Of a DNA stretch of 64,000 bases, positions 1 to 57,189 are shown piece after piece. A program made the position numbers and the translations under genes. The notes below the pieces were generated by a model. It saw only the letters and a list, made by a program, of their open reading frames with translations, was not told the origin of the DNA and did no database searches. Each line of letters starts with the position of its first letter. The stretch's first letter is position 1. This DNA comes from Aurantiochytrium sp. KH105 (taxonomy: Eukaryota > Sar > Bigyra > Thraustochytrida > Thraustochytriidae). The DNA is taken from positions 235,570 to 299,569 of the forward strand of contig BGKB01000082.1 in assembly GCA_003116975.1 (NCBI GenBank), given 5' to 3'.

Positions 1-692
1 CGCCCACGCCCACGCCCGCGCCATCATCGTCTCCGCTCGCGCCCAGTCCCAATCCCGTTTTGCCGCGTCCCACTGACCGCCGCTTCCTCCGCCCCTCTGC
101 AGCACTAGCATACTACTCGCCTGCCTGTCTTTCAGGTTGCGCTCCGGCCCGCCATACTAACGCTAGTGAGCGCCGCGGCGTGCACGCCCCGCCACGCTTC
201 CTCCTTTTGTCGCTCACCATTTCCGTGCCGAACAGAGCTTTCGCAGGCACTACCAAGAGAGAGCGCAGGGTCGGAGAAGTAGTCGGCCGCCAGGGCAGCC
301 AGCGAGGCCCGTGACCGCCTCGCGTCTTGCGACTGCGACGCGGCGCGCGGGAAGGGAGGGAGGGAGGGAGGGAGGGAGGGAAGGAGGGAAGGAGAGCGGG
401 AATGGTCGGCGCGTCTGTACTGAACGGCCCCAAGCGCACCTGTGGGACGAATGTTGATCGTCAGAATTGGGAGGATAAGGTATAGTATTATTCCGCACAG
501 CGAGGCGGCAACGACCGAGCATCAAAACTGCAACGCGAGGCAACGCAAAGACGCTCATCCTCGGGCAAGGCTGAAGGCGTCTGCGAGTACGAGAGCAAAC
601 GGTGTCTTGGCGGGACGGGGCTGGAAAGCTGTCTGTACGCGGGCGTGCTGGTATCAGGCCGCGCAAGAGAGCAAACTTGGAAAGAATCGCCA
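1..692. other. Intergenic, upstream of the sulfotransferase-like gene
   Basis: No gene is supported here. The stretch starts with C-rich pyrimidine repeats and carries a GGGA/GGAA purine microsatellite at about 353-394. It is probably the 5' flank and leader of the gene starting at 693. Open frames here begin at non-ATG codons and have low-complexity translations. Confidence 0.5.
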
Positions 693-1979
693 ATGGGGCT
701 AAAAAACAACATGCTTCTCTCGCAGAGCCCAGCTTCGTCACCGAGAAAGGCGCAGTACCTGACGACGAAGCAGTGCATCCTGGCGCTCGCAGTACTCTTC
801 TGCGCGATGTCATGCGTCCTTGTTGGGGCCATAGTCTTCTTTCTCGGACCACAAGAGATCAGCTCCCTGTCAATGAATTTGCCGCTGGGAAAGACCAATA
901 TTCTTGACGAGAGCACTTCCTCGACACAAGTCAATGATCCGGAGGACGTTGCTTTCCTGCAACGCACGTCTCAGATGATCCTGCAGCGTCGGTGTCCCGC
1001 AAATGCGCACCTTGAATTCGTCTTTCCTCACGTTCCCAAGGCTGGCGGCCGAAGTATCGAGACCACCTTCAACGCCGTCGACTTTTTGAGGACGGAAGCA
1101 CGACATCATCACGTTTCGCTCGAGCCCAGGTCCCGAACGCACAATTTCACACTTCAAAATGGTCATCGCGACTTTGCGCAGCTCGCTCGAGATCTACGGT
1201 GCAATTCCCTGACGTGCGAAGTCACTTCGGAAAACTTTTGCAGGCGCTGGATTTACGCCGTCCGGGAGCCCGTCGCCCGCTTTGTTTCGGCATTCTACAC
1301 ATCGACCGGGCGGAGCGACGGTGGGCACTTTTTGTGCGCGGTGAACTCAACCGCGAAACGCATCATCGCAGCAGACCCCGACTTATCAATTGAAGACTGG
1401 GCTCGTCTCCCACGCGAGGAACGCGATAAGTGCCGAGGAGTCTTCAACGTCCATGTCAATTTTCTTGCGCCTGAGCTGCGCAACGACCCCAAGAGGCAGC
1501 TCGAGCTTGCCAAGCAAAGACTTACCTCTGTTATGAGTTGGACACTCATTGTCGAGGAGCTCGCAGAATCTTTTGAGCTCTTCTCGTATATCTTTGGCTC
1601 AGACCTCGTTCATCATGTGCCCGCCTTTAACTACAACAAGTACGAGAAGAAACTGAGCGCGCACGCACAAAAGGTCATCGAAGAACACAACCTGTACGAC
1701 ATCGAGCTCTACAAACACGCTCTGGAACACCACCGCATCATGGTAGACCTGATGCGCACTGACAGCTCTGACCCATTCTACAACAAAACCCCATTCCGCT
1801 GCGACAAGGATGTCGTTTGCTGGGACAAGCTTGCCGGACGCGGTTCCACGTGGGATGTCGCGCGAGCACCAGCTTGGCAGAAGCACTTTCCCAGCAAAGG
1901 GCAGGCGAAGACGCGTCAGCTTTGCGCGCCAAGACGCGGGTGTTGGCGAGAGGATCTCGCGGACTCCAAATTTACATGA
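693..1979 (+). CDS. Golgi-type membrane sulfotransferase-like protein
   Basis: The 428-residue product looks like a type II membrane sulfotransferase that would move sulfate from PAPS to a glycan or protein in the Golgi lumen. A short cytosolic tail is followed by one hydrophobic segment (about 28-52) and a lumenal domain. The motif HVPKAGG (113-119), preceded by hydrophobic FVFP, fits the 5'-phosphosulfate-binding loop seen as HIPKTGG in 2-O-sulfotransferase-type enzymes. VREPVARFVSAFY (190-202) fits the 3'-phosphate-binding motif. ATG 693 is the first in-frame ATG and keeps a signal-anchor layout; ATG 711 is possible. The frame is open further upstream only from a GTG. The acceptor substrate cannot be read from the sequence. 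The gene converges with the mannosidase gene that follows. Confidence 0.8.
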   Translation: MGLKNNMLLSQSPASSPRKAQYLTTKQCILALAVLFCAMSCVLVGAIVFFLGPQEISSLSMNLPLGKTNILDESTSSTQVNDPEDVAFLQRTSQMILQRRCPANAHLEFVFPHVPKAGGRSIETTFNAVDFLRTEARHHHVSLEPRSRTHNFTLQNGHRDFAQLARDLRCNSLTCEVTSENFCRRWIYAVREPVARFVSAFYTSTGRSDGGHFLCAVNSTAKRIIAADPDLSIEDWARLPREERDKCRGVFNVHVNFLAPELRNDPKRQLELAKQRLTSVMSWTLIVEELAESFELFSYIFGSDLVHHVPAFNYNKYEKKLSAHAQKVIEEHNLYDIELYKHALEHHRIMVDLMRTDSSDPFYNKTPFRCDKDVVCWDKLAGRGSTWDVARAPAWQKHFPSKGQAKTRQLCAPRRGCWREDLADSKFT

Positions 1980-2433
1980 ATGAATGAACGAATGAAAGGT
2001 TAATTGATTGATAGCCGTGCAAGCATGCATGCATGTGTTGGGGGGGGGGGGGGGGGGGGGGGGGAGTTTCGGGGCCAGTACAATGCAGATTTGTTATTCA
2101 ACCATGTTATTGTGTATGTCATGAGAGGAGAGAGCCGAAAGTCAAAATGAAAGAAAAGTGATCTTGTGATCTCTCTTGCTCTTTACTCTTGGTCATGTTG
2201 AAGAGAGAGGAATAAACAACTTTTCTCTGTCCTTGTCCTCGTCCCTTTTTTTTTTGAAAAATATCCTTGTCCGTATGCGTGCGCAGTCCACAGCAGAAAA
2301 AAAAAAAAGATAGGAGGAAAGGAAAGAACTGGGAGAGCAAACTAACACGGAAGAAACGTTAAGATGACCGCACGAAACTCCGAGGACGAGCACACTGCAT
2401 CAGCAAAGAACCTTGCGCGCGACTTTTGCGATA
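1980..2433. repeat. Convergent intergenic region with poly-G run
   Basis: This spacer lies between two convergent genes. It holds an uninterrupted G run of about 25 bases (2040-2064), just after an alternating ATGC/GCAT stretch, and short T and A runs near 2247-2310. The G run could form a quadruplex or be an assembly-sensitive homopolymer. No gene is seen. Confidence 0.6.
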
Positions 2434-5400
2434 CTACAAGAGCGTTGAGTCTACCTGACCAGGATTCGGACTTGCCAAGGGTTGATGAATGAGTGAGATC
2501 GTCCAGGCATTCGGCGAACTCTTCGTGACTGAAAAGCCCCAAGAGTCGAGGACCATTCCGATGAGCTCCTGACCCGTCCACACTGCCCAGGGATAGCCCG
2601 ACGTCTCGAGACGCGTGCGCGACGTCTCAATACGCACGTGCACGACATCGTCTACATCTTTCGCTGCATCCGACTTACTCTCCGGCACGTCATTTTCGTC
2701 TACATCTACCTCCTCGTCATACTCTTCCAGGTCGCGATCCTGCTGCTTGGTGTTACGACGGCGCCCAGCCTGCTGACGAATGCGGTGATAAAGAATGTCC
2801 CCATCACGTTTTGACAACATGAACGTGGGCAATTTGGCCCGCGTCGAAGAGAAAAGCGCCGCCATGGCCTTGCCAAAAAGATGGTCCTGTGCCATGCCCA
2901 CCATGTAGAAAAGACCTTCCTCGTCTTTATTCTGTGCGATAAGGAGTGCGAGCGCCCCGGCCTTTTCGGCAAAGAGCGCCTTCTGCTCGAACATGCAGGT
3001 TCCACGCCGCACGAGGACGACACGATTTGCAACGAGTTCTGGGGGGTAGGCTGCTGCAGAACATCCTTCGGGTTCGACGGCGAGGACTACAGAGCCCTCG
3101 ACCACTTGTGGAACGGCTCCGGGGCCAAACTCGGAAAAGCTGCACGCCGTAGGGGCCTGCAGCCGCGACAATGGCGCGCGCGCGTGCTCCATCGTGGACC
3201 ATGGGCTCGGCCTTGGCGCGCACGTTGGCCCTGGCCCAGTCGAGATCTCGATGGAACATCGAAGAGCAAAGCCTGGTTTCTTCTGGTTCACATACAGAAA
3301 CGAAGAATGCATTGGCTCGCCCTCCATGACTTCTATGGCAGCCAAATCCGTCTCCAGACTTGAGATGGTCACTGCCGAGTTACTAAATTCGTGGTAAAGG
3401 TGAAAGCCTGCTTGGAGCGGTTGGACTTCGTACACTGCGTCTTCCCCCGGACCAAGACGCACTGTTTGCACATTGGCAAAATCCTCAGCGTCCGCATCTT
3501 CTTCCTCCCCCGCAAAACCGAGATCTTTCCGACCATAGTCGGTGTCGTCATTGTCATCTTCAGCAGCGTCAATGTATACATCGACACCGTCTCTTTGTTC
3601 CAGGCTGCTACTGCGTGCGCTGCCGCCGGCGTCCTCCCCCGAGGCGAGCCTGCTCGCGCGCTTGGCGGCCTTAGAAAGGTAGCCGAATCGCCTGGGTTTG
3701 CGAAGGGCCGGGTTTGCGCCATAGTACGAGGAGACCTGGGAGATGTCCTGGTCATTGCGATCGATTGCGGGGCACATCCATTCCGAGCTCATCGCCTCGT
3801 CAGTAAGAGAAGGGACGCCCCACAGACCTTTGACCTGTTCGCGCAGCGCTGCACGCGCGGAGTTGCTGCGCGGTTTGCGAGAAAATGCAAAACCCATCTC
3901 CCGGGCCTTGCGCTGAAAGTCGGCACGCACAGGGATGAGATGCGCTTCGGTAGAAAACACATAGTTTGCGCCATTGTCCTCACGAAATGGACTTTCCTCG
4001 TCAAAAAGCAAATAGAGGTACTTGAGCAGCTCCGAAAGGAAAAACGAGGGCATGGTGTCGTGTAGTCGCTCCGTTTTAATGTCCTTTATACTCGCGTAGC
4101 CGCACTCGACGAAGCAGGCCTGCTCGAGTCCGCGTACCATGTCCCGGCCGGCAACAAGCCAGGCTGGATCTTGCGTCGTAGTGCTCATGTAAAAAACACT
4201 CTCTGCCAGCTCGGGTCGCAAGGGGTAGCCGCGACGAGTGCCTCCGACGAGAGGCTCCCAGCGATCAATGCCAAAGTCCTCTGGAGTGAAGCCAAACTCA
4301 TTCCAGACGCGCAAGAAGGCATTGATGGTTCTGCTTGCAGCTTCGGCATCGCCGACAAGAGTCTGCATGCCCGGCCAAAAGGCTTGCAGATTGTTGAACT
4401 GGCGTCGCAGGGTGCTGCCGCGGTGCATGTTGACCTCAATATACCACGTGTCCCCAACACGCAGTCGCCGCACGGCCGCTGCGTAGAGCTTTTGGAACAT
4501 GACAAAGGCCTCCTCGTCGCCAAAGGCAATGTAGTGCTTGATGTAATATTCGTAGAGCGAATCAATGTTGGACCCGATCCCGGCTGTCGGTTCGGTCCAC
4601 CTGCCAGTCTGCACGTCGATGTGGCGCCCCACCAGATCGAGCTTGGACCGGTGGTCAAAGATGGCTTTGAGTGCATCTCGCGCGGCAATGCCGTAGCGCG
4701 CGTCGTCCGTGAGCACGGAAAGCAAGCCAAACTCGAGCGAGAGCGAGCCGGCCGCTGCTGTGCACGCTTCCGTGGTTTCGCCGCGTGGCACACCGTGGCG
4801 CAGGTTCACAGTTCCGAACGGGATCGAGGTTGTGGTTTCAAAGGCAGGAAGGAGTCTGTCGCCGAGGTCACGGGCGAGACGCAAGAGATCGCCATCGTAG
4901 TCAGGCATGATGGCCAGATCCGGGTCGCTGGCCAACAAGTGAGCGGAAAGCAAGCCTCCAAGAATACGAATCGTGGTCTCAAAGACAGAGACAGTCTGAT
5001 CGAGGTCAAAGTCGGCATGGCTCGAGACAACGCGCACGGCACGCGCAAATTCCGTGTAGTTGCCCACAATGGCAAGCATGTCAAGGGAGTCGATCAAAGT
5101 GAGCATGTTGCCAGCAGTGAGACCGAAGCGCTCGCCGCGGCACGAGAGCGGTTTGAGCTCGTCGAGAGGAAAGGCGTTCTCCATGTAGGCATTGTAACCA
5201 TGGTAGAACATGCCGCGGACCTGCTCGCGGAGATTGATGCGCTCAGTTTCGGAGATGTGCATACGCTTATTTCCAGCGTTGCGTTTCTGGTGGCCAGGAG
5301 GCGCCCCCTGTGTTGCTTGCTTTTTCTGAAGGCCGCCAATTCCACCGGCCTCTGAGCGCGACTTTGTCGTCGATTGGTCAGTCCCAAGATTGTCGATGTC

Positions 5401-6177
5401 GACGCCATAATCATCATCGCTGATTTCCTTTTCTTCGTCATTGTCATTGGACTCGCGTCGAATAGTCCATCGATCTTTCCGTTTGGCGCCCACTGCAGTA
5501 CCCTCATTCTCGCGATCCTCGAGCACGCTACACTCTTGGCTTTCTTCTTCCCAGAGCCGTGGCAACATGCATCCTATGGGGGAGCAGACGGACATAGCGT
5601 AGGCGCAAGTAGATACCTCGGAAACCGTGAGAATGTGCGCAAGCTCGGAAGTTGGGATGGAAGGCGCGGCAGCCAGATCTTCGTCCATATGCTTGGCTTG
5701 GGCAGCGTGTCTGCCGCAGCAGCGGATCCTGACAATAGTAGACCGCTTCGTCCCAGCTTGCTCGCAGGGCTGGCCGCCTTCGAATTTGTAGGCAATGTAG
5801 GTCGGCCGATTATTCTTCCAGCCGCCCAAGGTGGGCTCGCCGCCGTTGGCCGCGAGCGTGCCTGCCGACCAGTCGACGGATCGAGGGCCCGTTCTGGACT
5901 CCATGTGGAACTGGCGCACCTCTTTGCCATGGCACCATGCGTACTGCCACCATCCGCTACCGCTGGACTCCACGCAGACGCCCTCGAGCGGGCGCAGGAG
6001 GTCCTCGACCCGGGCGGCGACAACCTGGCCCACGGCGGCTCGCGGGTCTCCCGCATCCTCGGTCTCTGCGCGAGCTGCCGTCGTCGCCGCCAGCTGCAGC
6101 AGGACGGCCGCCGCCAGGACCGCCGCCGCCAGCCGCGCCAGGACCGCCGGTCCTGGCAGCCGCGCGGGCCCCGCCAT
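2434..6177 (-). CDS. ER quality-control fusion: MRH lectin + GH47 (EDEM-type) mannosidase + PA domain
   Basis: This 1,247-residue protein should act in the ER lumen, trimming or reading mannose on misfolded glycoproteins before degradation. Residues 1-37 form an Ala/Leu-rich signal peptide. Residues about 66-205 match an OS-9/PRKCSH-type MRH domain: WW at 76-77, WC at 81-82, QFH at 89-91, paired cysteines, and all four expected mannose contacts (Q89, R145, E187, Y193). A charged linker leads to a GH47 catalytic domain (about 310-750) with LIDSLDML (361-368), DSLYEYY (539-545), RPELAES (654-660) and the terminal FSTEAH (741-746). An acidic low-complexity stretch follows (about 870-900). A PA domain (about 1010-1130) has the RRGTCMFEQKA core. 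EDEM3 of animals combines GH47 and PA; an N-terminal MRH domain is not part of its usual layout. There is no KDEL-type C-terminus. ATG 6177 directly precedes the signal peptide. Confidence 0.93.
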   Translation of the reverse strand: MAGPARLPGPAVLARLAAAVLAAAVLLQLAATTAARAETEDAGDPRAAVGQVVAARVEDLLRPLEGVCVESSGSGWWQYAWCHGKEVRQFHMESRTGPRSVDWSAGTLAANGGEPTLGGWKNNRPTYIAYKFEGGQPCEQAGTKRSTIVRIRCCGRHAAQAKHMDEDLAAAPSIPTSELAHILTVSEVSTCAYAMSVCSPIGCMLPRLWEEESQECSVLEDRENEGTAVGAKRKDRWTIRRESNDNDEEKEISDDDYGVDIDNLGTDQSTTKSRSEAGGIGGLQKKQATQGAPPGHQKRNAGNKRMHISETERINLREQVRGMFYHGYNAYMENAFPLDELKPLSCRGERFGLTAGNMLTLIDSLDMLAIVGNYTEFARAVRVVSSHADFDLDQTVSVFETTIRILGGLLSAHLLASDPDLAIMPDYDGDLLRLARDLGDRLLPAFETTTSIPFGTVNLRHGVPRGETTEACTAAAGSLSLEFGLLSVLTDDARYGIAARDALKAIFDHRSKLDLVGRHIDVQTGRWTEPTAGIGSNIDSLYEYYIKHYIAFGDEEAFVMFQKLYAAAVRRLRVGDTWYIEVNMHRGSTLRRQFNNLQAFWPGMQTLVGDAEAASRTINAFLRVWNEFGFTPEDFGIDRWEPLVGGTRRGYPLRPELAESVFYMSTTTQDPAWLVAGRDMVRGLEQACFVECGYASIKDIKTERLHDTMPSFFLSELLKYLYLLFDEESPFREDNGANYVFSTEAHLIPVRADFQRKAREMGFAFSRKPRSNSARAALREQVKGLWGVPSLTDEAMSSEWMCPAIDRNDQDISQVSSYYGANPALRKPRRFGYLSKAAKRASRLASGEDAGGSARSSSLEQRDGVDVYIDAAEDDNDDTDYGRKDLGFAGEEEDADAEDFANVQTVRLGPGEDAVYEVQPLQAGFHLYHEFSNSAVTISSLETDLAAIEVMEGEPMHSSFLYVNQKKPGFALRCSIEISTGPGPTCAPRPSPWSTMEHARAPLSRLQAPTACSFSEFGPGAVPQVVEGSVVLAVEPEGCSAAAYPPELVANRVVLVRRGTCMFEQKALFAEKAGALALLIAQNKDEEGLFYMVGMAQDHLFGKAMAALFSSTRAKLPTFMLSKRDGDILYHRIRQQAGRRRNTKQQDRDLEEYDEEVDVDENDVPESKSDAAKDVDDVVHVRIETSRTRLETSGYPWAVWTGQELIGMVLDSWGFSVTKSSPNAWTISLIHQPLASPNPGQVDSTLL

Positions 6178-6474
6178 CGCGCACCGCGTTTTGAATTTGC
6201 GCTGCTCTGCTCTGCTCTGCTTTGCGTTGCGTTGCTTTGTTGTGCTCCCTCCTCTTAGTTACTGAAGGCGACTGAAGGCGTCTCGGTCTTCAGGGCTTGG
6301 CGCGCTCGCATTCCCGCAACTCTTATCGTGCGTGCGTCGCGAGCGGCGGCGGCGCGCAGGGAAAGAGCGAGGCAAAGCGAGGCGAGGCAAAGCGAGGCAA
6401 AGCGAGGCAAAGCGAGGCGGGACGCTCGAGAACGAGCGCGACGTGGAGGACTCGGACCTCGTGTGAAAAGACGA

Positions 6475-6505
<31 letters not shown>

Positions 6506-6678
6506 AACGAAGACGACGACGACGACGAAGAAGAAGATCTCGGCAACGACCTTGACGTCGACGACGACCTTGACATCGAAAGCAAGCGCAGAGATTGGGT
6601 AGAACAAACAGGAGCTGTAGGAGAAGGCGCGACATCGAGCGCAGAGATAAAGTTGAAGGTGGAACGAGGGCGAGCGGG
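6178..6678. promoter_or_regulatory. Divergent promoter region with GCGAGGCAAA repeats
   Basis: About 500 bp separate the divergent mannosidase and PRKRIP1 genes, so it should hold both promoters and leaders. It contains TCTGC/TTGCG pentamer-like repeats (about 6205-6240), a block of GCGAGGCAAA repeats (6366-6420), and GAC/GCC triplet repeats (about 6471-6540). No clear TATA box is visible. Confidence 0.5.
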
Positions 6679-7347
6679 ATGAACGGCGGTGGCGGCGCTC
6701 GATCGGCCGAAGCCTCGCGGGCAATCCAACAGGCCGTGGCGCAGGGAGACAAGGCGGCTGTCGCTGACGACGCCAAATTCCAGCTGAAAAAAGTTGACAA
6801 CTACTATGGCAGCACCGCAGGCGCAGGGAGCGGCGAGTTTCACGCATACAGACACCTTCGGCGCAAAGAGCAAGAGCGCATGGCAGCGCTCGAGAAAAGC
6901 GATGAGGATGCCAGGGCCCGTAACGAATTCGATGCGCGTCGCAAACGTGATCAAGAGGCTATCGATGCAAAGTCGCGAAAACGCGCAGAAAAGCGAAAAC
7001 GTCAAAAGGAACGAAAACGTCTTCACGCTTCTTCTCATTCTGCTGCTGGTGCTGTTGCTACTCCTTCTTCATCTTTACCTGCAACATCTTCACAAGGGCC
7101 AGCCACTAAAACGGACAATCTCGATCATGCTCATGAACCATCACCAACTCTCGAAAATGTTGGAAAGATAGAAGCACCGCCACCAGAACCCAAGACAAAT
7201 GCCGAGGAGAAGAAGGGCGGGGATGAGGACGAGGACGCCGAGGAAGCGATACGAGCGCGCAAATTGAACAAGTTTTCTAACGACGGTAGTTTCCTCGACG
7301 CTGTCAACGCGCTAAAGGAGTACGCGGCTGCACCCGCGACCAAATGA
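6679..7347 (+). CDS. PRKRIP1: PRKRIP1-like spliceosome-associated protein (DUF1168)
   Basis: The 222-residue protein matches the PRKRIP1 family, a small helical nuclear protein found in the spliceosome in other eukaryotes. The signature is the segment [21 protein letters not shown], which leads into a long charged helix rich in Arg, Lys and Glu and a basic stretch ([14 protein letters not shown]) that could serve as a nuclear localisation signal. A Ser/Ala/Thr-rich linker and an acidic segment follow. The C-terminus, with [12 protein letters not shown], looks conserved. ATG 6679 is used because the frame upstream opens only into arginine-rich low-complexity sequence. The gene is divergent from the mannosidase gene. 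Confidence 0.88.
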
Positions 7348-7399
7348 GTCCACTTCATTAGGAAGAGAAGATACAGATGCATCACAAGAGCGAGAAAAT

Positions 7400-7435
<36 letters not shown>

Positions 7436-7537
7436 GATGTGAAAAAGGAACAGTTGTAACGATTTTTTTTTGGATAAAAGAGGGAAATGCGTGATGGGTA
7501 TTTGCAGTCGCAGGAGTGGAGATGAGGGCGAGCGAGC
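7348..7537. repeat. Short convergent spacer with CAG microsatellite
   Basis: A pure CAG run (about 7401-7434) lies between the 3' ends of PRKRIP1 and ARPC3, followed by a T run (about 7464-7471). Confidence 0.7.
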
Positions 7538-8065
7538 CTAGCGGACGAGAATGTTCATGAACTTGCGCTTGGAGAAACCCATCCAGAACTTGTCCGGTGC
7601 GGCCTCCGAATGCGCGTAGAGCCTGTCGAGCATACGGTTGCAGCACTCTTCACGGAGCTGCTTCATGTAGTTGCGGCACTTGTCCTCCTCATCGCGGCCC
7701 TTGGGAGCAGGAATGTGGCCTCCAAGAGGCCAGCCGGACTCGCCGGGCAGAGGGAATTTCTCCTTGGAAAGATCAAACATGATCTTGGCGCCAGACTGCT
7801 TGTTACCAGCCTTTTCCATGCGCTTGAGGATCTGCGAGATGAAAAGCGTGAGGAAGATGATGACGCGGTCTGCAGGGCCTTCGATCACATAGCTTGCAAA
7901 GAGGACATTGGCGCGAAAGAACTTGATCGCCTCGTCAATGATGTCCTCGTCACTGCCGCTGGCTCGCGGGGCTGGCCCCTTGACGCTGGTCTTGAGAGGC
8001 AGCACAGACATGCCGCACACTACATTGCCGCCGTCATCGTTGAGCGCCGAGTGATACGCCGGCAT
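7538..8065 (-). CDS. ARPC3: Actin-related protein 2/3 complex subunit 3 (ARPC3, p21)
   Basis: This is a 175-residue subunit of the Arp2/3 complex, which nucleates branched actin filaments. It aligns end to end with the family, which is usually near 178 residues. It starts MPAYHSALND, has the KGPAPR segment, then DIIDEAIKFFRANVLFASY, the helix ITLYISE-equivalent (FLTLFISQILKRM), FPLPGESGWPLGG, and a C-terminal WMGFSKRKFMN. ATG 8065 begins the conserved N-terminus. It is an intact single exon, so the organism should build branched actin networks. Confidence 0.96.
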   Translation of the reverse strand: MPAYHSALNDDGGNVVCGMSVLPLKTSVKGPAPRASGSDEDIIDEAIKFFRANVLFASYVIEGPADRVIIFLTLFISQILKRMEKAGNKQSGAKIMFDLSKEKFPLPGESGWPLGGHIPAPKGRDEEDKCRNYMKQLREECCNRMLDRLYAHSEAAPDKFWMGFSKRKFMNILVR

Positions 8066-8702
8066 GCTTGCGCGCTGCGCTTCTGCCCGCTGGGCGTGGG
8101 TTTATTTTCGATCCCTCGTTCGCCTTGGCGGCGTGCGCGCGGCGCTCGAGCGAGCAAGTCGGCGCGCGGCGGTACTTCGAGGCGGGCCGAGGGGTGGATG
8201 CAGGCGATAGCGGGGCGGGGCGCTGCTCGCGAGGGCAAGGCTAGCACGCGAGGCACGCGGACGCGGGTTGTGAAGGTTCTGTTGAGCGCTAATGCCGGAG
8301 GCGGCCAAATGAAAGTAAAAAGTAAAAACAAAAAAACACAAGGGGGAAAAGGCAAGAGGAAAGAAAAAAACAACTTGAAAGAAGATCTTTGATCATCGTG
8401 ACGAGAGAGAGATGACGAGAAGAAAAAAAAAAAAAAAAGGCTATCACAGTGTCAATGCGAAAGAGGTCTATCTATACTAGAATAAACACCACGAAAAGCC
8501 GAGCCGGAGGCGGCCTTGACACAGCCCGAGCGAGCATGATGATTATCCTCCTCGCTCGCTTGGACTTGAACTTGAAGAAAGTAGAAAAGCAAGATCGGGA
8601 AGGAGAATCAGAGGGGTGCGAAGAGCAGCGAGCGCTTTGCGTTTTGATAGTGAGCAGCCAAGTCCAGTATCACGTTCAACGAGGGAGACTCACACGAGTT
8701 GT
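8066..8702. other. Intergenic, 5' flank of ARPC3
   Basis: No gene is supported here. The stretch includes an A run at about 8421-8438 and Lys-coding A-rich sequence near 8325-8375. It probably holds the ARPC3 promoter (minus strand) and the 3' flank of the possible small gene at 8703. Confidence 0.4.
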
Positions 8703-8927
8703 CTACTTGCGCAGCCTTTTGAGGAGAGACTGCAGCACAATGAGTAAGCAGCCAATGGGCCCACAACGACAGATGATTGAAAAAACATGCCATGTGATGT
8801 GAAGGCAGAATTGAGCCAATGCAATGCAAAAGAGCATTCTCAGAGGAACACCGACACGCACAAAAAAGACAAGAACCAGGAGAGTGAACGCAACAGCAAC
8901 AGCAATCGAGTAAAATAGGGCACTCAT
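8703..8927 (-). CDS. Possible small membrane protein, two hydrophobic segments
   Basis: An ATG-initiated 74-residue frame reads MSALFYSIAVAVAF followed by an almost continuous hydrophobic segment (about 5-27), a second one (about 29-68 with breaks), and a basic C-terminus KRLRK. The purine at -3 of the ATG is favourable. I do not recognise the family. The composition suits a short integral membrane protein of the ER or mitochondria, but a chance frame cannot be excluded. It lies between prohibitin and ARPC3 on the same strand. Confidence 0.35.
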   Translation of the reverse strand: MSALFYSIAVAVAFTLLVLVFFVRVGVPLRMLFCIALAQFCLHITWHVFSIICRCGPIGCLLIVLQSLLKRLRK

Positions 8928-9079
8928 TTCTCGAAGCGGGCAATTAAGGGGTTAATGAAAAGGCCATCATCGTCCGCCAAGGCTGATTGAACAGACGGCA
9001 GCGACAGCCGACAGGAACCTTGAAAGGATGATTCTTGAAGAGGAAGAAAGCCCCAAGCTCATCCACAAAGACTCGACCT

Positions 9080-10099
9080 CTACTGTCCGATGCTCATGAG
9101 CATGCTGACGTTGCTACCCTCACCCTTGCCACCTGACGGAAGGTAGACAACGTTGCGCGAGCGTGCGAGCGTGGCGGCAATGTCCTTGGCGGCGTCGATG
9201 CGACGGACCTCAATGAGACCACGGCCGTTCTTCTTGAGGGCATCGGAAATGAGCTCGGCAGCCTGGGCCTCACCCTCGGCCTCGATAACGCGGACCTTCT
9301 TCTCCTGCTCGGCCTTGGCGACGAGGAACTTGGAGCGCTCAGCCTCCTGGTGGGCGACCTGCTTGGCCTCGACGGCAGTGGAGAAATCCTGCGAGAAGAG
9401 AACTGTGGACGGTAAACAAAGCAGACAAGAAAAGAAGCGACCGAGAGAGTTAGCGCTGCGTGCATCGAGAAAAACATGGGAATTCGGGGCACCACCCGAA
9501 AATGCGAAATACAAGCTCTGTGAAGCAAAGTGTCATCACAAAGCGACGCGAGGGCGGAAAAACTTACCAGTGACAAGGGAGACATCGTCAAGAGTGATGT
9601 GAAAGTTGCGGGCACGGGCCTGGAGCGTCTCGATGATCTGCTGGGAGACCTTCTCACGCATGGTGATGAGCTGATCGGCGTTGTACTGAGCGACGACGGA
9701 CTTGAGGACCTCGTTGACAATGGAGGGGAGGACGCGGTCGTCGTAGTTCTGACCGAGCTCACGGTGAATCTTGGGGAGCTGGTCGACCTCGGGCCTCGAG
9801 AGGACACGCAGGCCGATGTTGACGGTCTGGAGATCCTTGGTCGGGGTGGTGCTGTTGACCACACGAGGCTTGGAGCGGATGGAGTAGATGTAGGGCGTCT
9901 GCACGAAGGGAAGCTTCAGGTGCGTGCCCTCGGTGCGGGCGACGGGCTGGACACCATCGCGGAGCATATCGTAGAGCACGGCGGCCTCGCCGGCGTCCAC
10001 ATTGTACAGCGCGTTCTGGCCGGCCCAGCCGACGATGCCGGCCGTGGCGGCCAGCTGCGCCACGCGCGTGAGGCCAACGGCAACCTGTCGTGCGGCCAT
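9080..10099 (-). CDS. PHB1: Prohibitin-1, two exons
   Basis: This encodes a 284-residue prohibitin-1, a ring-forming scaffold of the mitochondrial inner membrane. Exon 1 is 10099-9568 and exon 2 is 9402-9080. The intron (9567-9403, 165 bp) has GTAAGT and CCACAG ends. The join gives [11 protein letters not shown], which fits the family's SLTHLTFGKEF without a gap and decides the acceptor over a nearby CGCAG. Visible features are the N-terminal hydrophobic anchor (about 8-27), [12 protein letters not shown], the SPFH/band-7 core with [19 protein letters not shown], and the C-terminal coiled coil starting [15 protein letters not shown]. The start ATG 10099 gives the expected N-terminus. Confidence 0.96.
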
Positions 10100-10121
10100 C
10101 CTTGCTCGCTACGGTCTGTAG

Positions 10122-10152
<31 letters not shown>

Positions 10153-10665
10153 CGAGCTCGCCGCGGAACTTCTCGCGCTCCGCCTCGTCGGGGATCCGCG
10201 CTCCTTGTGCGCCGCCGCTCCGGGAGAAGGGGAGAGCGAGAGCCGCGAGGGGCGTGCGAGTGCCGGCGTGCTGCCTGTCGCCTGCGTCCGCGCTTCGGGC
10301 GTCGGGGCGTGCGTCCCTTGCGTCGCGTGAGCTCGCTCGCGAGTGGCGCGGATGGGTGATTGGATTCCAGACGCCGCGCGGCGCCCCTAGCGTTTCCCCT
10401 GGCCGCCGCCTAGGATCCCCGCGCCGCAGCGCCTGGCTGCCTGCCGCCGGCATTCGCGAAGCCACAGATCGCGGCGCCGATAGCCCACTTGCAGCGCGCC
10501 GCCGCAAGTCGGGAATGGCGCCGCGCAAAGGGCCCGCCCGGCCGCGCCACTGGGGGCGGCAGGTTGATTTCACTCGAAGTGAACTTTCCAGTCCTCGCGA
10601 CTGCGATGGCGAGTGTGATACACGGGAATGAAAGAAAGAAAGAAAGCAGGGAAGAAAGAACGCAG

Positions 10666-10710
<45 letters not shown>

Positions 10711-11955
10711 CTGCGCGACTTCGCCTGGATGGGCGAAGAACTTGAACTTGAAGGACGGAGAGGCGTGCTTGGAGAAAGGCGCGGGAGGAGATGGGGACGA
10801 AAAGTGAAGAGTTGATGGGATGAGGAGAGGAGGGATTAATTTTCTAAAAATTGCGGATGATGCGGAGTGGGGAGCTTGGGAAGAGCAAGAAATAGCAAAG
10901 GGATTAAAATTAGACTAGGCCGTCAAGGAGAAAAGGACGCGCGTCGCCAGCGCGAACAAACAAGAGTACGAGGAGGATCGTCCTAGGAATGTATTCTTGC
11001 CTGCAGGTGTGGAGTCTGCAAGCAAGCAAGCAAGCAAGCATGCATGGGAGGGAGGGAGGGACCAAGGGACTTGGGAAGAGAGCGCTACAGCTATCTACTA
11101 CAAATTGATAAATTTGTAGTAGTACATCTAAAGTGCATTTCTAGTAAAAGCCGCGCGTATCTGCAAATGCGCACGGAAGCAAACAAAACAGAGCGCTTTT
11201 CCTATTTTGCCTGACTCGCTCTTCGACAGATCATCCTGCGCACGCCGATCGCCACCCACGTCGACCATCATCATCGGACACTCGTAATTCGTCGACCAAT
11301 TCGAGTTCGCCTGGGTCTTGTTTTCTCTTCTCTAAACTTTCACAAGTGACTCTATTCACTTCCTCACGCATCGTTAAAACCGGACTCGGATCCCAACCGA
11401 TGTCTCTGCCTGCTCTCTCGCTTTCTTTCCGCAGTTCACAGGCAATCAACGATCCCAGTCCTTCGCGGGTCGCATCGCGAGGCGCCGGACGCGCGCAGGA
11501 GCACGACGGGACCGCGCCACGCGTCGCGTGCATCGCGAGGGCGGAGAGCGCGCGCCACGCCAGGCAGGCAGCCAGGCAGCCAGGCAGCCAGGCCGTCCTT
11601 CCGAGGCGCCCAGGTCTTCGGTTCAAGGCGGGCCCTCGCGGCAACGGCGGGTGGTGACATTCCGGGCTCCCAAACCGCTACCGAGCACGGGCAGACACGA
11701 GCGACGAGGAGGGCGCAGAGGCCTGGCCAAGGCGAGGTTCGAGAGGACCGGGGCGAGGTGGCGACCCAGAGCAGGACTGGGCGCCGACGCGAGAGGAGAA
11801 CGACCCGAACGCCTCGAGGTCCGGAAATCGCGCGCCTTGTTGAACGTGCGTGCGATCGAGGAGTCAGTCAGTCAGCCTGACAGCCCGAGAGGCAACGTTT
11901 GTCTGTCTGTCTGTCTGTCTGTCTGCTTGCGCGCTTGCTCTTTAGTTTGCTCGCG
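10100..11955. repeat. Long divergent intergenic region with microsatellites and a perfect hairpin
   Basis: No gene is supported in these 1.85 kb. There is a CTG run just upstream of prohibitin (about 10123-10150), GAAA repeats (10629-10710), AAGC repeats (about 11019-11040), a perfect inverted repeat at 11095-11122, GGCAGCCA-type repeats (about 11562-11592) and CTGT repeats (11900-11924) ending just before the next gene. Frames here translate to low-complexity Arg/Ala/Ser sequence. Confidence 0.5.
11095..11122. other. Perfect 12-bp inverted repeat with GATA loop
   Basis: The arm CTACTACAAATT (11095-11106) pairs with AATTTGTAGTAG (11111-11122) around a 4-base loop GATA. The surrounding region is GC-rich and carries no gene, so this AT-rich hairpin stands out. 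It could be a regulatory hairpin, a protein-binding palindrome or a relic of a small inverted-repeat element. Confidence 0.7.
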
Positions 11956-13734
11956 ATGTGGCACTCTGCAAAGAACGCGGGCACCAAGCTGCGCAACAAG
12001 TCGGGTGACGCGTTTCTTCGAAGCAAACGAATCTTAAAGAACGCGCATGGGGCCTTGCACTCGTCCGTGCCAGCCCCAGTCTCGCGCCTCGTGTCCGCTG
12101 CTCTTCGAGGCATCGATTCGTGCTTGTGGAGTGTCATCAGAGCAACGTACAATGCGGCCAGAAAGATCAATGTGCGGCTGCTTTTGGCTCTCATTATGTA
12201 CGCAGCCATCTTGAGCACTATCATCGCCAAGATGCGCTACAGCGCGCACTTTCAACCGTCCGTACGCATCGTTGAGGACATTGAAGAGCAGCGCACGCAA
12301 TGGGCAAAGGACTTTATCGTTCCATACGGCAACGAGCTCCTTGCCACAGACAGTGTGGCAACCTCGGCAGACCACCATATCGAGCTCTGCATCGCTGTGC
12401 CCACGGCAGAACGCCGGCACTCCTTTTTACTTCAGACTGTTGCCACCGTGGTCCGCAGCATCGTGCGCGCTGACAATAGTGACGTGGTGCTCATCGTCAA
12501 CGATGTCAACAAGCGCAGAATGGGCCACACAGATCCGTACGTGGCTTACTTGGAGCAGCATGGAGTCAACGTGATTCGGAGCTCTCTCTGTCTGAAAAAG
12601 GGCGTCACCTGCAGGTCCAAGGAGAAAGCGGTGCTTGACATGGCCACCAGCGTCGACGCCTGCTTGACCATGACGTCGGCACCCTACATTGTTCTTCTCG
12701 AAGACGACATGGTCGTCTCTGCCCACTTTATTGACCGCGTGCTTCAGGCCGCGAAAAAGCTGTCTGCGGGCGAGGAACCGTGGGCTTTTCTCAGCCTCTT
12801 CCGCACCGGGCACTACGACGGTTTCTCGCGATCATGGGCGTCCATCTCTGAGCTCCTGAGCGTCAGCGTGGCCATCACAGCCATTCTCACAGCCCTGGTC
12901 TACGCCATTGCGGGACTGCAGCGAGTCACCTCCTCTGCGTCTCCCTCGACGACCAGCACCGCCACGGTCGCTGTCGCCGCCGCCGCCGCCACCACCACGA
13001 GCACCGCCACCGCTACGGGGCCTCGGCGTGGGGAGCGTGTTTTGCGGTTTTTGATGCGTTTCGTGGGCTTCACCATGGCAATTGCCGCCAGCATCTACGT
13101 ACTCGGGCGCCAGAACACGTTGCTCCCGCTCTACCTGAACGAGGGCCTTTACGAGGACATTTCGAGCGCCAGCACTGCTGGTCTCGTTTTCCCACGGAGG
13201 TCCGCGGAAAAGTTCACTGCTTGGCTGCAAAACCCAATTCTCGATGTCGACAAGTCGCAGGCTGCCGTGGAATTCGCTGCGGCCCACGGCCTCAAGTCGT
13301 ACTTGATGCGGCCCAATCCCGTGGAGCACGTGGGTCGCTTTACGTCAATTGCCGCAAAACGCATGAAACGGGAGATTGCTGATCCCCGTCTTCATTTCGC
13401 AAATTTCATGAAGGTCTCGGAATGGTTTGAGGAAGATGACTTCAAGGTCAGTTTGCGTTTTCCGCGTGACATTAATCCCGCGGAGAGACAATCTTCGAAA
13501 GACGACGATCCGGGGCGGTTTATTCAGGCCAACGTTCGTGGCAGTGTGTCGGGCGATGTGCATTACGTCAAGACCACCAAGCTGGCTCGGGCAGTGGGGC
13601 TGTTGTTTGTCGCCAGTTCCATCTTCCTCATTATGCTCATTAGCCATTTCGATACGTCTCGTGTGGGGGTCATTGATACCTTGGTCCTCACTTGCGACGG
13701 GGATCGTCCTGTTCGCGGCGAAAAGAACAATTGA
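11956..13734 (+). CDS. PGAP4-like (TMEM246-type) membrane glycosyltransferase, first tandem copy
   Basis: This 592-residue protein resembles PGAP4, the Golgi enzyme that adds a GalNAc side branch to GPI-anchor glycans. It has an N-terminal hydrophobic segment (about 75-95) and a GT-A fold starting IELCIAVPTAERR. The acidic metal-binding motif is LLEDDMVV with E249-D250-D251. Two hydrophobic segments are inserted inside the GT-A domain (about 300-322 and 362-384), which is the hallmark PGAP4 topology. The catalytic fold then resumes with GRQNTLLPLYL and ends RPNPVEHVGRFTS. A further hydrophobic segment lies near the C-terminus (about 543-565), which animal PGAP4 does not usually have. ATG 11956 is the first in-frame ATG; the upstream frame is only CTGT-repeat translation. 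A related gene follows on the same strand. Confidence 0.8.
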   Translation: MWHSAKNAGTKLRNKSGDAFLRSKRILKNAHGALHSSVPAPVSRLVSAALRGIDSCLWSVIRATYNAARKINVRLLLALIMYAAILSTIIAKMRYSAHFQPSVRIVEDIEEQRTQWAKDFIVPYGNELLATDSVATSADHHIELCIAVPTAERRHSFLLQTVATVVRSIVRADNSDVVLIVNDVNKRRMGHTDPYVAYLEQHGVNVIRSSLCLKKGVTCRSKEKAVLDMATSVDACLTMTSAPYIVLLEDDMVVSAHFIDRVLQAAKKLSAGEEPWAFLSLFRTGHYDGFSRSWASISELLSVSVAITAILTALVYAIAGLQRVTSSASPSTTSTATVAVAAAAATTTSTATATGPRRGERVLRFLMRFVGFTMAIAASIYVLGRQNTLLPLYLNEGLYEDISSASTAGLVFPRRSAEKFTAWLQNPILDVDKSQAAVEFAAAHGLKSYLMRPNPVEHVGRFTSIAAKRMKREIADPRLHFANFMKVSEWFEEDDFKVSLRFPRDINPAERQSSKDDDPGRFIQANVRGSVSGDVHYVKTTKLARAVGLLFVASSIFLIMLISHFDTSRVGVIDTLVLTCDGDRPVRGEKNN

Positions 13735-14528
13735 CGCATTACCCTGCGTCGTGCATCTTGCCTGATATAGCTTCTGATCTTATAGTACCTGCTCTACGAA
13801 TGCAACACACATTGAAAGGATTCTCTCTTTTATACACCATTCACAGTTTTAAAAATCAATCTCGTGACTCGCCTCATAGGGCCTACCTTGACTCTGCGCA
13901 CAAAAAGCTCAATCTCGTGCTCTCAGAGTATTTCGATTGACTCGTGCTCTCAGAGTATTTCGATCGACTCGTGCTCTCAGAGTATTTCGATTGACTCGCA
14001 GATGAGGTCCCAAGTCGTCGGCTTCTCTCCCAACCAACCCACATCCGGCCTGACTGTGAGTATGTTTTCCTACTGTGCCGCGGCGTGCAGTGCGCGGCCC
14101 AGCCAGCGTAAATCAATGCACACACAGGCAGAGGGAGTGCAGGCTGGAACTTGAATACAGACAGCCTGGGTCAGACACTCAACGTCGGCTGCTGGCCGCC
14201 GTGGACGTGCCTTGGCGTGTGGCGGCCAGCACGGCACCAGCCAGGAGGCCGCGCAGACGCGGCCAGGGCTGTGCACGCGCGCGCGCGCGCGCGCGTGACC
14301 GCGAGGGCGAAGCCAAGCGAACGGGCCTCGCTCTCTGTTTTTCTCTCGGGCAGCGCATGCTGGGCGAGACCTCGCGCTGCGCCTGCTGGGACTGACGTGG
14401 GCGCGCGCCTTGTCTGCGCAGAGGAAGAGCAAGAGCAAAAGCAAGAGCAAGGGAAGGAGCAGCCGCTCGCGCGTTGAACGACGGGGCAAGGCCAGCAGGG
14501 AAGTCGAAGGTAACAAAGACGGGGGGCC
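13735..14528. repeat. Spacer between the PGAP4-like paralogues with a 3 x 27-bp repeat and a GC run
   Basis: Three direct copies of a 27-bp unit (13914-13994, core CTCGTGCTCTCAGAGTATTT) lie about 180 bp after the first PGAP4-like stop codon. An alternating CG/GC tract (about 14275-14296) could adopt Z-form DNA. GAGCAA-type repeats lie at about 14423-14455. No gene is supported. Confidence 0.6.
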
Positions 14529-16376
14529 ATGCGGTCTCGAAGCTCCTCCGATGCAACTTCAATTAGGTCTCTTGAGGCTGGCACGAAGCCAAAGTCTAAC
14601 ATGAGCGAGCACATGGCGTCTGCTTTAGACCAAGGATCGTCACCTACATCGGTGGCCTCGACACCAACATCGACCCGAAGAAGAGAGAAAACTCGCAGAA
14701 CGTCGCTGCCCTCGCGCTCGCTTAGCATGAACGTAGGAATGATGAGGGCCATGGTAGAGCATGATAGATATTTCAAGGACAATCGAGACCTGCACTCGAG
14801 CAGAACGCTTGGCATTCCGAGAGATAGACTCAGATTCTGGTGTACACCGGTGCACCGATTGTTTCTTCTCCTGGCATGGGCTCTTCGCTTAGCCGGCCGC
14901 TACAGTTCCTGGCGAAAGAAACCTCGAGTATTTGCGGGACTCATCGTCTATTTATTGCTGCTCATGGCGGTTGCCTCGAACTTGAGACATAGTCTCTTCT
15001 TCTCCCCAGATCTAAAGGAGGTCATTGCCAACGAAAATGCGCTCACGGCATGGTCCAAGCCCACACTCATGTCGCTCGGGTTCAACGTTGATTCGCTCGA
15101 CGAAACTGCCGACGAGCTCGCAGCGCCGCGCATTTGCATCGTGATGACCACCGCCGAACGAAAAATACCCTATTCGTACGCCGCTGCGGCTACTGTGCTG
15201 CGCAGTTTGATTGAGTCCAAGGAAGACGGCGCCTTTATCGTCAATGATGTTGGGTTCTACAAGGATCGAAAGAGACCAGGTGTTGACCTCCTCGAGCTGT
15301 CCGGGGTCCAGGTCGTGCGAAGACGTGGATGCGACTACTCCAAGCGCGGCGCGAGCAGGTGCTCGAGACACGTCAAGGCAAAACTTGACTACATACAGAG
15401 CCTAAAGGCCTGCCTAGACACCACGAGCGCGCGCTATGTGACCGTGATTGACGACGATGTCGTGGTATCCAAGCGCTTTGTCCAACGCCAGCTTCTCGCA
15501 GCAGATGCCTTGCAGGAGAATGCCTTGCCGTGGACCCTGCTGCGCCTTTTCCGGACCGACGCGTACGACAACTTTTCGCTGGCATCGCCCACTTCGCTGC
15601 TGGAACTTGTACTTTTCAGCGCGGCAAACTCCTTTCTCTGGATTTTCATTTTGGGAAAACCATTTTGGACCGTGCAGACGTGGAGTGCCGAGTTGCGCCA
15701 CCTCTTTATATCTCGGGCCTTTACCTTTTTTAGTCTCAGCGCACTGAGTCTTCTCGTCTTTGGCCGACAAAACACTTTTGCACCCTTTGGTATCCACAGC
15801 GGAGTCTTCAAGAGTCCCAGCGAGGCTGGAAGTGTCGGAATCATGTATCCGCGCCAGATCGCAGATGCGCTCGTTGACTTTCTTCAAAATGGCAATGGAC
15901 CATCTGCTGTGGACGAGGCCATCAACGACTTTTGCGGCCAGTATCATAAAAATGCACCTTGTTTGGTACTGCGCCCCAACCTCATGGAGCACGTCGGTCG
16001 ATTTTCGTCTCTGTCAAGTCGGAGGACGGTCCTGGAGAATACGAGGCTACAGTTGCACTTTGCGTCAGGCATGCGAACATCTGAGTGGTTCATTTCCGAT
16101 GACACTTCTCTGCAAGATAAATTCGAAGCCAAGCGGGCAAAGACAACGGAGAGTCTAGACTCTCCGCTCTTTGTGTCAGCCTTGGACAATGTCAATCAGA
16201 TTCTAGCGGACACGGGCGGCCTTACGCGACAGCCGCTGGTTTTCATTATTTCTTCCATCGCACTCATCAACATCGTCGGCTTTGGGGAGCACTTTTTCAT
16301 ACCTGTCTCGAGAAAGCACATGCGCAACATTTTGCGCGTCATGCGCCCTCCTCGCCCCCCCATGCGGTCTGTGTAA
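14529..16376 (+). CDS. PGAP4-like membrane glycosyltransferase, second tandem copy
   Basis: This 615-residue paralogue shares the whole architecture of the preceding gene. It has an N-terminal hydrophobic segment (about 137-155), GT-A start PRICIVMTTAERK, acidic motif VIDDDVVV (D308-D310), and two inserted hydrophobic segments (about 357-380 and 393-412). The fold resumes with FGRQNTFAPFG and RPNLMEHVGRFSS, and a C-terminal hydrophobic segment lies at about 570-590. The cytosolic N-terminus is longer and Ser/Thr-rich. ATG 14529 or ATG 14601 could be the start. Divergence between the copies is large outside motifs, so the duplication is old or the two act on different acceptors. It probably works on GPI or related glycans in the Golgi; the sugar transferred is not readable. 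Confidence 0.8.
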   Translation: MRSRSSSDATSIRSLEAGTKPKSNMSEHMASALDQGSSPTSVASTPTSTRRREKTRRTSLPSRSLSMNVGMMRAMVEHDRYFKDNRDLHSSRTLGIPRDRLRFWCTPVHRLFLLLAWALRLAGRYSSWRKKPRVFAGLIVYLLLLMAVASNLRHSLFFSPDLKEVIANENALTAWSKPTLMSLGFNVDSLDETADELAAPRICIVMTTAERKIPYSYAAAATVLRSLIESKEDGAFIVNDVGFYKDRKRPGVDLLELSGVQVVRRRGCDYSKRGASRCSRHVKAKLDYIQSLKACLDTTSARYVTVIDDDVVVSKRFVQRQLLAADALQENALPWTLLRLFRTDAYDNFSLASPTSLLELVLFSAANSFLWIFILGKPFWTVQTWSAELRHLFISRAFTFFSLSALSLLVFGRQNTFAPFGIHSGVFKSPSEAGSVGIMYPRQIADALVDFLQNGNGPSAVDEAINDFCGQYHKNAPCLVLRPNLMEHVGRFSSLSSRRTVLENTRLQLHFASGMRTSEWFISDDTSLQDKFEAKRAKTTESLDSPLFVSALDNVNQILADTGGLTRQPLVFIISSIALINIVGFGEHFFIPVSRKHMRNILRVMRPPRPPMRSV

Positions 16377-16846
16377 CGCGCGTCTGAAAAATAATTGGAC
16401 ATGTAATTTTTTTATTTCGTGCGACGGTGTCGTGGGGAAGAACACCTCACGTTCACAGCCAATCTGTCATCGATTGTTGAGCACTAGGGGAACTCCGTCA
16501 TCTCGCTGCCGTTCGGGAAGCCTATGCATGGCTCGACCAAGTTTGACTTGCCCCGTGTCTTGAAAGGTCGAGGCCAAATGTCTTGTCATCTCCTCCAGCG
16601 GTCTTGAAAGGAATGCTTGTTTTTCAGAACCTGCGCCCAAATCGGCCCAAACGTTATTTCTCTCGCATGGGGGAAAGGGCCAAGCCCAGGCCCTGCCTGC
16701 AGCGAGCGAGCAAGCAAGAGGAACAAAAAGCCTAAGCTACGGCTCTCGCGCGCGCTACGGTGGGCGGTGCGACGGTGCGAGCTGCTCTGGGACCGGTCTG
16801 CCTCGTGTGCTTTCTTTGCAAGAGGCCAAAAAAGGCGCAGCACGCC
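16377..16846. other. Intergenic, 5' flank of the trifunctional glycan enzyme
   Basis: No gene is seen. A short T-rich stretch and the GAGCAAGCAAG motif (about 16706-16720) lie here. The next gene's frame extends upstream only from a non-ATG codon. Confidence 0.4.
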
Positions 16847-51583: not shown

Positions 51584-51889
51584 GCGAAACGAAGCAACGC
51601 TCATCATGTTATTTGTAAAGTGAGATGATAAAATTTCAATGGGGCGTTCATGAGTGTCGAAAAGCAAGGGCAAAGGAGATCTAGAGCGGATCATTTCAAA
51701 TCGCTCGTGCTTTTTATCGGCACGGGTCGTAGTCCCGGAAATAGAAGCGAGATTGTGGTCCACGAATAACCTCTTCGGGCTGCTGCAACCTTTATTTTCA
51801 TGGGTGAATTCGGAAGCGTCTGGCTCACTGTCAGACCCCTCCATTTATAGTCCTTTTATAGCAAATACTCTAGGCATAAAACGAAAAGA
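51584..51889. other. Spacer between the LRR-IQ and PP2A B'' genes
   Basis: No gene is supported. The sequence is AT-richer than its neighbours. TTTTATAG near 51853-51860 could be a weak TATA-like element for the next gene. Confidence 0.4.
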
Positions 51890-53545: not shown

Positions 53546-53627
53546 CACTTTTTCTTCGTATCGGCGAAAATAAGAATAAATGAGTCAGACCATTCTTGCC
53601 TCTCAACGCCCAAAAAAAGGCGGCATC

Positions 53628-53697
53628 TCCGTGTTGGTGTAATGGTAACATCTGACGCTCTCACCGTCAACCCCCGGGTTCGATTCCCGGACATGGA
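53628..53697 (+). tRNA. trnE(CUC): tRNA-Glu (anticodon CUC)
   Basis: A 70-base cloverleaf folds without gaps. The acceptor stem TCCGTGT pairs with ACATGGA (one G-U pair) and the D arm is GTGT/ACAT with an AATGGTA loop. The anticodon stem TGACG/CGTCA encloses the loop CTCTCAC, so the anticodon is CUC, reading GAG. The variable loop has four bases and the T arm is CCGGG-TTCGATT-CCCGG. No intron and no encoded CCA are present. A run of 16 T (53704-53719) six bases downstream is a strong RNA polymerase III terminator. Confidence 0.97.
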
Positions 53698-53703
53698 ATT
53701 TAC

Positions 53704-53719
53704 TTTTTTTTTTTTTTTT
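53704..53719 (+). terminator. RNA polymerase III terminator of tRNA-Glu
   Basis: Sixteen consecutive T follow the tRNA 3' end by six bases. This is far longer than the four or five T needed for Pol III termination. Confidence 0.85.
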
Positions 53720-53720
53720 A

Positions 53721-56700: not shown

Positions 56701-57189
56701 GAGCGTAAGCATTTGGTCTGAGGTATCACGGGACTTGGTGTTCAAGGCCAGGAGAGGCAACGTGAAGTAGGCTGGGACCTCACTTGGATCTTCGCAAGAG
56801 GACCGCCAAAAAAAAACTGCCATTTGCAGCAGCACTTTCAGCATTGTCTGCTTTCGACATCGCTCACGGCCACCTCAGTATACGCTTATTTTTGCCACGA
56901 TGGCGGAGTCCGCCTTGATGATCTTGTTTGTGCCAGCACCAGCTGGAGCAGGCTTGCGCCTTTCAAAGTCTAACTCCGAGCAGCCTCGATGAGTCGCGAT
57001 CATCAAGTATGCCAAGCATGCCAGGCCGGGCTAGCTCGCGGGCGAGGCTGTTTCGAGGCGCCTGGCGTGCCCATCCATCCTTGGCAAGCTCGAGCTTTTG
57101 CAAGCTTGCGCCAAGACTTGCGCTCGCCAAGTGACTTTTTTCGCGCTGCAAAGTGGACTAGGAAGTTGCACCGCGGCGCTCGGTCGTTG
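53721..57189. other. Gene-poor region between tRNA-Glu and the tandem array
   Basis: I cannot support a gene in these 3.5 kb. A minus-strand stretch at about 53720-53893 reads protein-like (ELDDVVKPRYSHPPNSWVLL, one hydrophobic helix) behind a T-rich TTGTAG acceptor-like site, but no upstream exon was found. A stem-loop lies at 53941-53990. One undetermined base is at 54045. Other frames start at non-ATG codons or are low in complexity. Confidence 0.5.
53941..53990. other. Stem-loop with A-rich loop
   Basis: CGAAGTCCGGT (53941-53951) can pair with ACCGGGACTTCG (53979-53990) with a single bulged base, around a 27-base A/C-rich loop. It lies about 240 bp after the tRNA. Its function is unknown. 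Confidence 0.6.

Follow-up and report, generated by a model that had tools for sequence, protein, structure and literature searches.

Structure of the locus

We analysed a coding sequence on the reverse strand of contig BGKB01000082.1 (C82) of Aurantiochytrium sp. KH105, which joins an MRH lectin domain, a GH47 alpha-mannosidase domain and a protease-associated (PA) domain in one polypeptide. The stretch of DNA that contains it comprises 64,000 nucleotides and is called the window in the following. The genome assembly examined had a size of 76 Mb in 367 contigs. The fusion is real and well formed. Its domains are known, and what is new is their combination rather than the kind of system. The features of the gene are as follows (window coordinates):

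2434..6177, reverse strand: whole coding sequence of the MRH-GH47-PA fusion, including the stop codon; 1,247 amino acids in a single uninterrupted frame
6070..6177, reverse strand: likely signal peptide, approximately residues 1–36; hydropathy peak of 2.43 at residues 16–30
5551..5997, reverse strand: MRH lectin domain, residues 61–209; from Pfam PRKCSH, a profile of our own and the alignment with OS-9
5242..5550, reverse strand: charged linker, residues 210–312; from hydropathy and the comparison of two gene copies
3928..5211, reverse strand: GH47 alpha-mannosidase domain, predicted EDEM/Htm1 type, residues 323–750; from Pfam, best solved relative 8zpw
3478..3660, reverse strand: acidic, fast-changing linker, residues 840–900; ratio of nonsynonymous to synonymous substitution rates (dN/dS) 0.37 (residues 851–900 only)
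2791..3102, reverse strand: PA domain, residues 1026–1129; from Pfam, full model
2434..2448, reverse strand: C-terminus STLL with no KDEL-type retrieval signal; SKLL in the second copy on contig C94

The original prediction for this DNA had named a protein of 1,247 amino acids at 2434–6177 with MRH, GH47 and PA domains, and the Pfam domain search bore this out. Glyco_hydro_47 was found at residues 323–750 (E 9e-108, 361.6 bits, model positions 1–455 of 455, above the curated cut-off), PA at residues 1026–1129 (E 1.2e-14, 54.6 bits, full model, cut-off 23.9) and PRKCSH/MRH at residues 66–138 (E 1e-8, 36.3 bits, above the cut-off of 27). The C-terminal part of the MRH domain lay outside the PRKCSH model; PRKCSH_1 reached 18.4 bits at residues 180–209, below its cut-off of 23. 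Our own profile was built from ten MRH domains (seven of this genome and three of OS-9 and Erlectin), with the fusion left out. It scored 74.8 bits over residues 61–205, whereas shuffled versions of residues 40–225 reached at most 6.6 in 1,000 trials. At the sequence level, the profiles, the sugar contacts (see below) and the conserved cysteines mark it as an MRH domain. A structure model of residues 40–225 from the single sequence (no alignment) had a mean predicted local distance difference test (pLDDT) value of 33.9.

The hydropathy maximum of 2.43 was N-terminal. In the linker (residues 205–320), the maximum over 15 residues was −0.48. There was no hydrophobic stretch in these residues and thus no second signal sequence ahead of GH47, so the GH47 part would rely on the signal peptide that precedes the MRH domain. 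At the C-terminus, no KDEL-type signal was present in either copy. When residues 761–1247 were compared with solved structures, only weak matches were found, the best being a keratinase at the PA position (E 0.0071).

Comparison of two gene copies

A second, colinear copy of the region was found on contig C94, with 94–97% DNA identity over window positions 1–18187. Its protein has 1,252 amino acids and the same domain order. Residues 1–219 did not differ between the copies in a single amino acid. The MRH domain (residues 66–209) had no nonsynonymous and three synonymous changes, GH47 had 2 and 19 (dN/dS 0.03), and PA had 2 and 7 (dN/dS 0.09). The linker at residues 210–312 had seven changes of each kind (dN/dS 0.26).

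The coding sequences of the copies differed by two insertions or deletions (InDels), both multiples of three and both near the 3′ end. The non-coding rate was taken from five stretches assumed to be non-coding (37 InDels in 3,379 bases, 26 of them frame-shifting). At this rate, about 29 frame-shifting InDels would be expected in the whole coding sequence, and none was found, which is strong evidence. No InDels were found in the 309 bases of the linker, against 3.4 expected, which is weak evidence alone. Given the open frame shared by two colinear copies, the lack of linker InDels and the lack of a second signal sequence, the fusion is very probably one gene.

A frame change at residues 973–1012 had been suspected from a protein-like other frame. 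It was dropped, as both copies keep the frame. Here, the copies had no nonsynonymous and one synonymous change, although so short a segment carries little weight as evidence.

The mannosidase domain

Among solved structures, the fusion matched 8zpw best (270.8 bits), followed by 29te (220.6 bits; a GFP-mannosidase construct of unstated origin) and the Golgi mannosidase IA, 1nxc (169.6 bits). The chains 1x9d and 1fmi of endoplasmic reticulum (ER) mannosidase I (ERManI) scored 157.4–157.7 bits. By these match scores, rather than by a GH47 tree, the domain is assigned to the EDEM/Htm1 type and is nearer to it than to ERManI or the Golgi enzymes.

The acidic motifs VFE400TTIR, GIGSNID539, LRPE656 and FST743EAH were in place. 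Their positions were read against 8zpw, and ERManI itself was not part of the residue-by-residue alignment. The catalytic acidic residues of ERManI comprise E330, D463 and E599, beside the Ca-binding T688. The first two are described as important in PMC7835635.

C346 and C692 of the fusion aligned with residues 65 and 445 of 8zpw (counted by hand), i.e. with the Cys65–Cys445 pair of Htm1, of which equivalents are known in EDEM3 (PMC7835635). The likeness to EDEM3 and Htm1 (Mnl1) comprises the EDEM-type Cys pair, the C-terminal PA domain and the best solved match. Human EDEM3 has a signal peptide, a mannosidase domain and a protease-associated motif, so the order of GH47 and PA is that of the fusion. 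In the passage cited, however, EDEM3 is without an MRH domain and ends in KDEL, whereas the fusion has an N-terminal MRH domain and no KDEL (PMC7835635). Purified EDEM3 is reported to turn M8B into alpha-1,6-exposing glycans in vitro (PMC8570694).

The sugar site of the MRH domain

The fusion resembles OS-9, Yos9 and XTP3-B (Erlectin) in its MRH sequence, the WW motif and the contacts Q, R, E and Y. It differs in carrying GH47, as the lectins of the OS-9 family are not known to have a catalytic domain. When aligned, Q89, R145, E187 and Y193 of the fusion stood opposite Q130, R188, E212 and Y218 of OS-9, and the tryptophan pair W76/W77 opposite W117/W118. The original prediction had named these contacts and the WW motif at exactly these residues.

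The four contacts were kept in all 11 aligned MRH rows (by eye), and general mannose binding is therefore expected. WW was found in five of the 11 rows (the fusion, OS-9, the second MRH domain of Erlectin and the second MRH domain of both double-MRH lectins of this genome, see below) and YW in four (both by eye). No tryptophan stood at this position in the two aligned glucosidase II beta rows of the same genome; the alignment did not extend to C150/C80, the third gene of glucosidase II beta type.

The tryptophan pair of OS-9 is reported to give selectivity for Man-alpha1,6-Man, and the MRH domain of glucosidase II is described as lacking that extension (PMC4444583). In glucosidase II, another tryptophan outside the pocket affects activity (PMC6272264). 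R145 corresponds to Arg188 of OS-9, which is required to bind alpha-1,6-exposed glycans (PMC7835635).

The fused MRH domain has an additional pair of cysteines, C154 and C198. Cysteines in the same columns were found only in the first MRH domain of one of the two double-MRH lectins (lectin 1), i.e. in two of the 11 rows:

5551–5997 of the window and 3387–4994 of locus L031: extra Cys pair C154, C198, shared by the fusion and the first MRH domain of lectin 1

This hints at a first domain like that of lectin 1 as the origin of the fused MRH domain, in which WW was either kept or regained. In a tree of the 11 MRH domains, the glucosidase II beta pair was the only resolved group (Shimodaira–Hasegawa-like approximate likelihood ratio test (SH-aLRT) 99.3, bootstrap 99); its poorly supported split of the fusion with the lectin 1 domain points in the same direction as the cysteines.

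Other glycan and degradation genes in the genome

The GH47 family was found in six places, which we group into three genes, each present twice. Besides the fusion, there was a mannosidase on C84/C158 with an N-terminal hydrophobic segment (hydropathy on C84) and a second EDEM on C83/C85. The latter has no MRH domain and only a trace of PA (13.7 and 14.3 bits, cut-off 23.9). It was 44% identical to the fusion across the GH47 region and ended in RDEL on C83. In the copy on C85 (locus L036), a stop codon at 7184–7186 lay 47 residues earlier than in the copy on C83 (L037), so this copy would lack the RDEL retrieval signal.

PRKCSH/MRH had 14 matches in the genome, 11 of them above the cut-off. Two genes are double-MRH lectins. 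The first (C21/C68) matched OS-9 best (8.4e-14), then Erlectin (5.8e-13); the second (C259/C235) matched Erlectin best (3.8e-25). The original prediction had raised the idea that a separate OS-9 gene is absent, and this is refuted by the two lectins. Replacement of OS-9 by the fusion was rejected for the same reason: with separate OS-9/Erlectin-type lectins remaining, the fusion adds to the usual reader and does not replace it. The second double-MRH lectin (L034 3504–4535, L033 3711–4742) comprised 343 amino acids from the first Met, with no hydrophobic start (by eye), and a 5′ exon may be missing. A further gene with a single MRH domain on C26 (L035 2512–3642) matched the gamma subunit of GlcNAc-1-phosphotransferase best among solved structures (1.2e-8), then Erlectin. 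No second copy of it was listed, and it is not clearly a lectin of ER-associated degradation (ERAD).

The N-terminal region of glucosidase II beta (PRKCSH-like, PF12999) was found in three other genes of the genome. The fusion had no Pfam match to it up to E 10, which ruled it out as a member of glucosidase II beta.

Glyco_transf_22 had ten matches in eight places, among which ALG9 and ALG12 were not distinguished from the rest of the family. ALG3 was found in two places, ALG6/8 in four (eight matches) and Derlin in four. As these families are present, the N-glycan that would carry an EDEM/OS-9 code is probably made in this organism.

Proposed function and alternative explanations

From its sequence, we infer the binding, the enzymatic activity and the ER location of the fusion. 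The explanation that we believe slightly more than we doubt it is an EDEM3-like ER alpha-1,2-mannosidase with its own OS-9-type lectin, which would read the enzyme's own product for feed-forward trimming and/or for docking at HRD1. By analogy with the known families, the protein would enter the ER via its signal peptide. GH47 would strip alpha-1,2-mannose from the N-glycans of misfolded proteins and expose alpha-1,6-mannose, and the MRH domain with the OS-9 tryptophan pair would bind the mannose exposed. As an EDEM-type GH47 exposes what an OS-9-type MRH domain binds, the lectin would read the product of its own enzyme. Binding of the product would keep the enzyme on the marked client, or return it there, so that further glycans of the client are trimmed. 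The MRH domain may also pass the client to the HRD1/SEL1L complex or dock the enzyme there. The analysis supports the predicted arrangement, in which a writer (EDEM-type GH47) shares a chain and a single signal peptide with a reader (OS-9-type MRH). In its strictest form, a single chain would mark the client, bind the mark, spread the trimming and deliver to HRD1 without a separate lectin, in parallel to the OS-9/EDEM route; this we regard as possible but doubtful.

Polypeptide GalNAc-transferases have folds unrelated to those of the fusion and are transferases, not mannosidases. They are a precedent only for the way of working, as their R-type lectin domain steers the enzyme to GalNAc-bearing regions (PMC4444583). 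In human cells, tagged EDEM1 and OS9 co-precipitate (PMC11163939); the fusion would therefore join partners that are already able to meet.

Several observations weigh against the reading as an enzyme with its own product lectin. The identity of the fused MRH domain was 23.5% to OS-9 (32 of 136 aligned positions) and 31.8% to the first MRH domain of Erlectin (41 of 129). The MRH tree did not resolve the fusion, and its split with the first domain of lectin 1 had an SH-aLRT of 14.1 and a bootstrap of 55. The Cys pair common to this domain, which has YW and not WW, hints at an ancestor of uncharacterised binding. Synonymous divergence between the gene copies was 0.06 for the coding sequence as a whole and 0.03 for the MRH domain, where selection is judged from three changes. 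Moreover, OS9 is reported to be dispensable for EDEM1 turnover (PMC11163939), and free OS-9-type lectins could make a fused reader redundant.

A different role of the MRH domain, in part compatible with the preferred explanation, would be retention: it would mainly bind glycans on a partner protein resident in the ER, for instance SEL1L, and hold an EDEM without KDEL at HRD1. The fusion ends in STLL or SKLL; RDEL is found at the end of the paralogue without MRH on C83. Human EDEM3 likewise has KDEL and XTP3-B is described as lacking it (PMC7835635), and OS-9 is presumed to be tethered via SEL1L glycans (PMC6272264). However, EDEM1 and EDEM2 are also listed without KDEL and yet have no MRH domain (PMC7835635), and the paralogue copy on C85 does not reach RDEL owing to its stop codon, so retrieval may not be strict. 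We consider retention as the main role unlikely. The alternative of the original prediction, in which the MRH domain holds the substrate as in the beta subunit of glucosidase II, is less favoured still and appears distinctly unlikely. Glucosidase II is also an N-glycan trimming enzyme that acts with an MRH domain, which boosts trimming by binding another branch (PMC4444583), and the general mannose binding expected from the four conserved contacts would suit such a role. Glucosidase II consists of two subunits, with a GH31 catalytic subunit (PMC6272264). Against such a role, the OS-9 pocket refuses a branch that still bears the outer alpha-1,2-mannose (PMC6272264), and the OS-9 tryptophan pair is present in the fusion (W76/W77) and not in the two aligned glucosidase II beta rows.

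It is very improbable that the MRH domain is vestigial or binds no sugar and only aids folding or protein contacts. Sugar binding is absent from some MRH domains (PMC4444583), and separate lectins are present in the genome; however, the four contacts and WW are all in place, and residues 1–219 are identical between the copies. We give next to no credence to an artefact, i.e. a join in the assembly or the reading of two neighbouring genes as a single one. The linker is charged and changes faster, but the same open frame stands on two colinear contigs, frame-shifting InDels are missing from the coding sequence, and no separate signal sequence precedes GH47.

Neighbourhood of the gene

Neighbouring genes encode a sulfotransferase-like protein (645–1979), the ARPC3 subunit of Arp2/3 (7538–8065), a Band-7 protein (9536–10099) and a protein whose MGAT4-like match did not reach the cut-off (11899–13734). 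At 58001–64000, a strong guanine–cytosine (GC) skew of 0.23–0.29 was observed towards the contig end. One closed frame of at least 250 amino acids overlapped positions 56000–64000. Two short tandem repeats were found at 50000–64000, neither of them at the end.

Meaning of the fusion

No report of an MRH-GH47 fusion was found in the open-access literature (titles and starts of abstracts among the matches listed), and databases of the InterPro type could already list the architecture. Three scans of viral contigs and one of prokaryote contigs gave no relatives, which says nothing on other eukaryotes. What sets the gene apart from the ordinary is the covalent link between the writer and the reader of one mark, preserved intact in either copy. 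It is less radical than first proposed, because separate readers are still in the genome.

In the eukaryotes treated in the cited passages, the marking mannosidase and the reading lectin are separate proteins, and how tightly they are coupled is unsettled. The fusion fits the reported association of EDEM1 and OS9 (PMC11163939). It offers a one-protein system in which the coupling is testable by single mutations on either side. A natural fusion of this kind suggests that there is at least one lineage in which marking and reading can work as a single unit.

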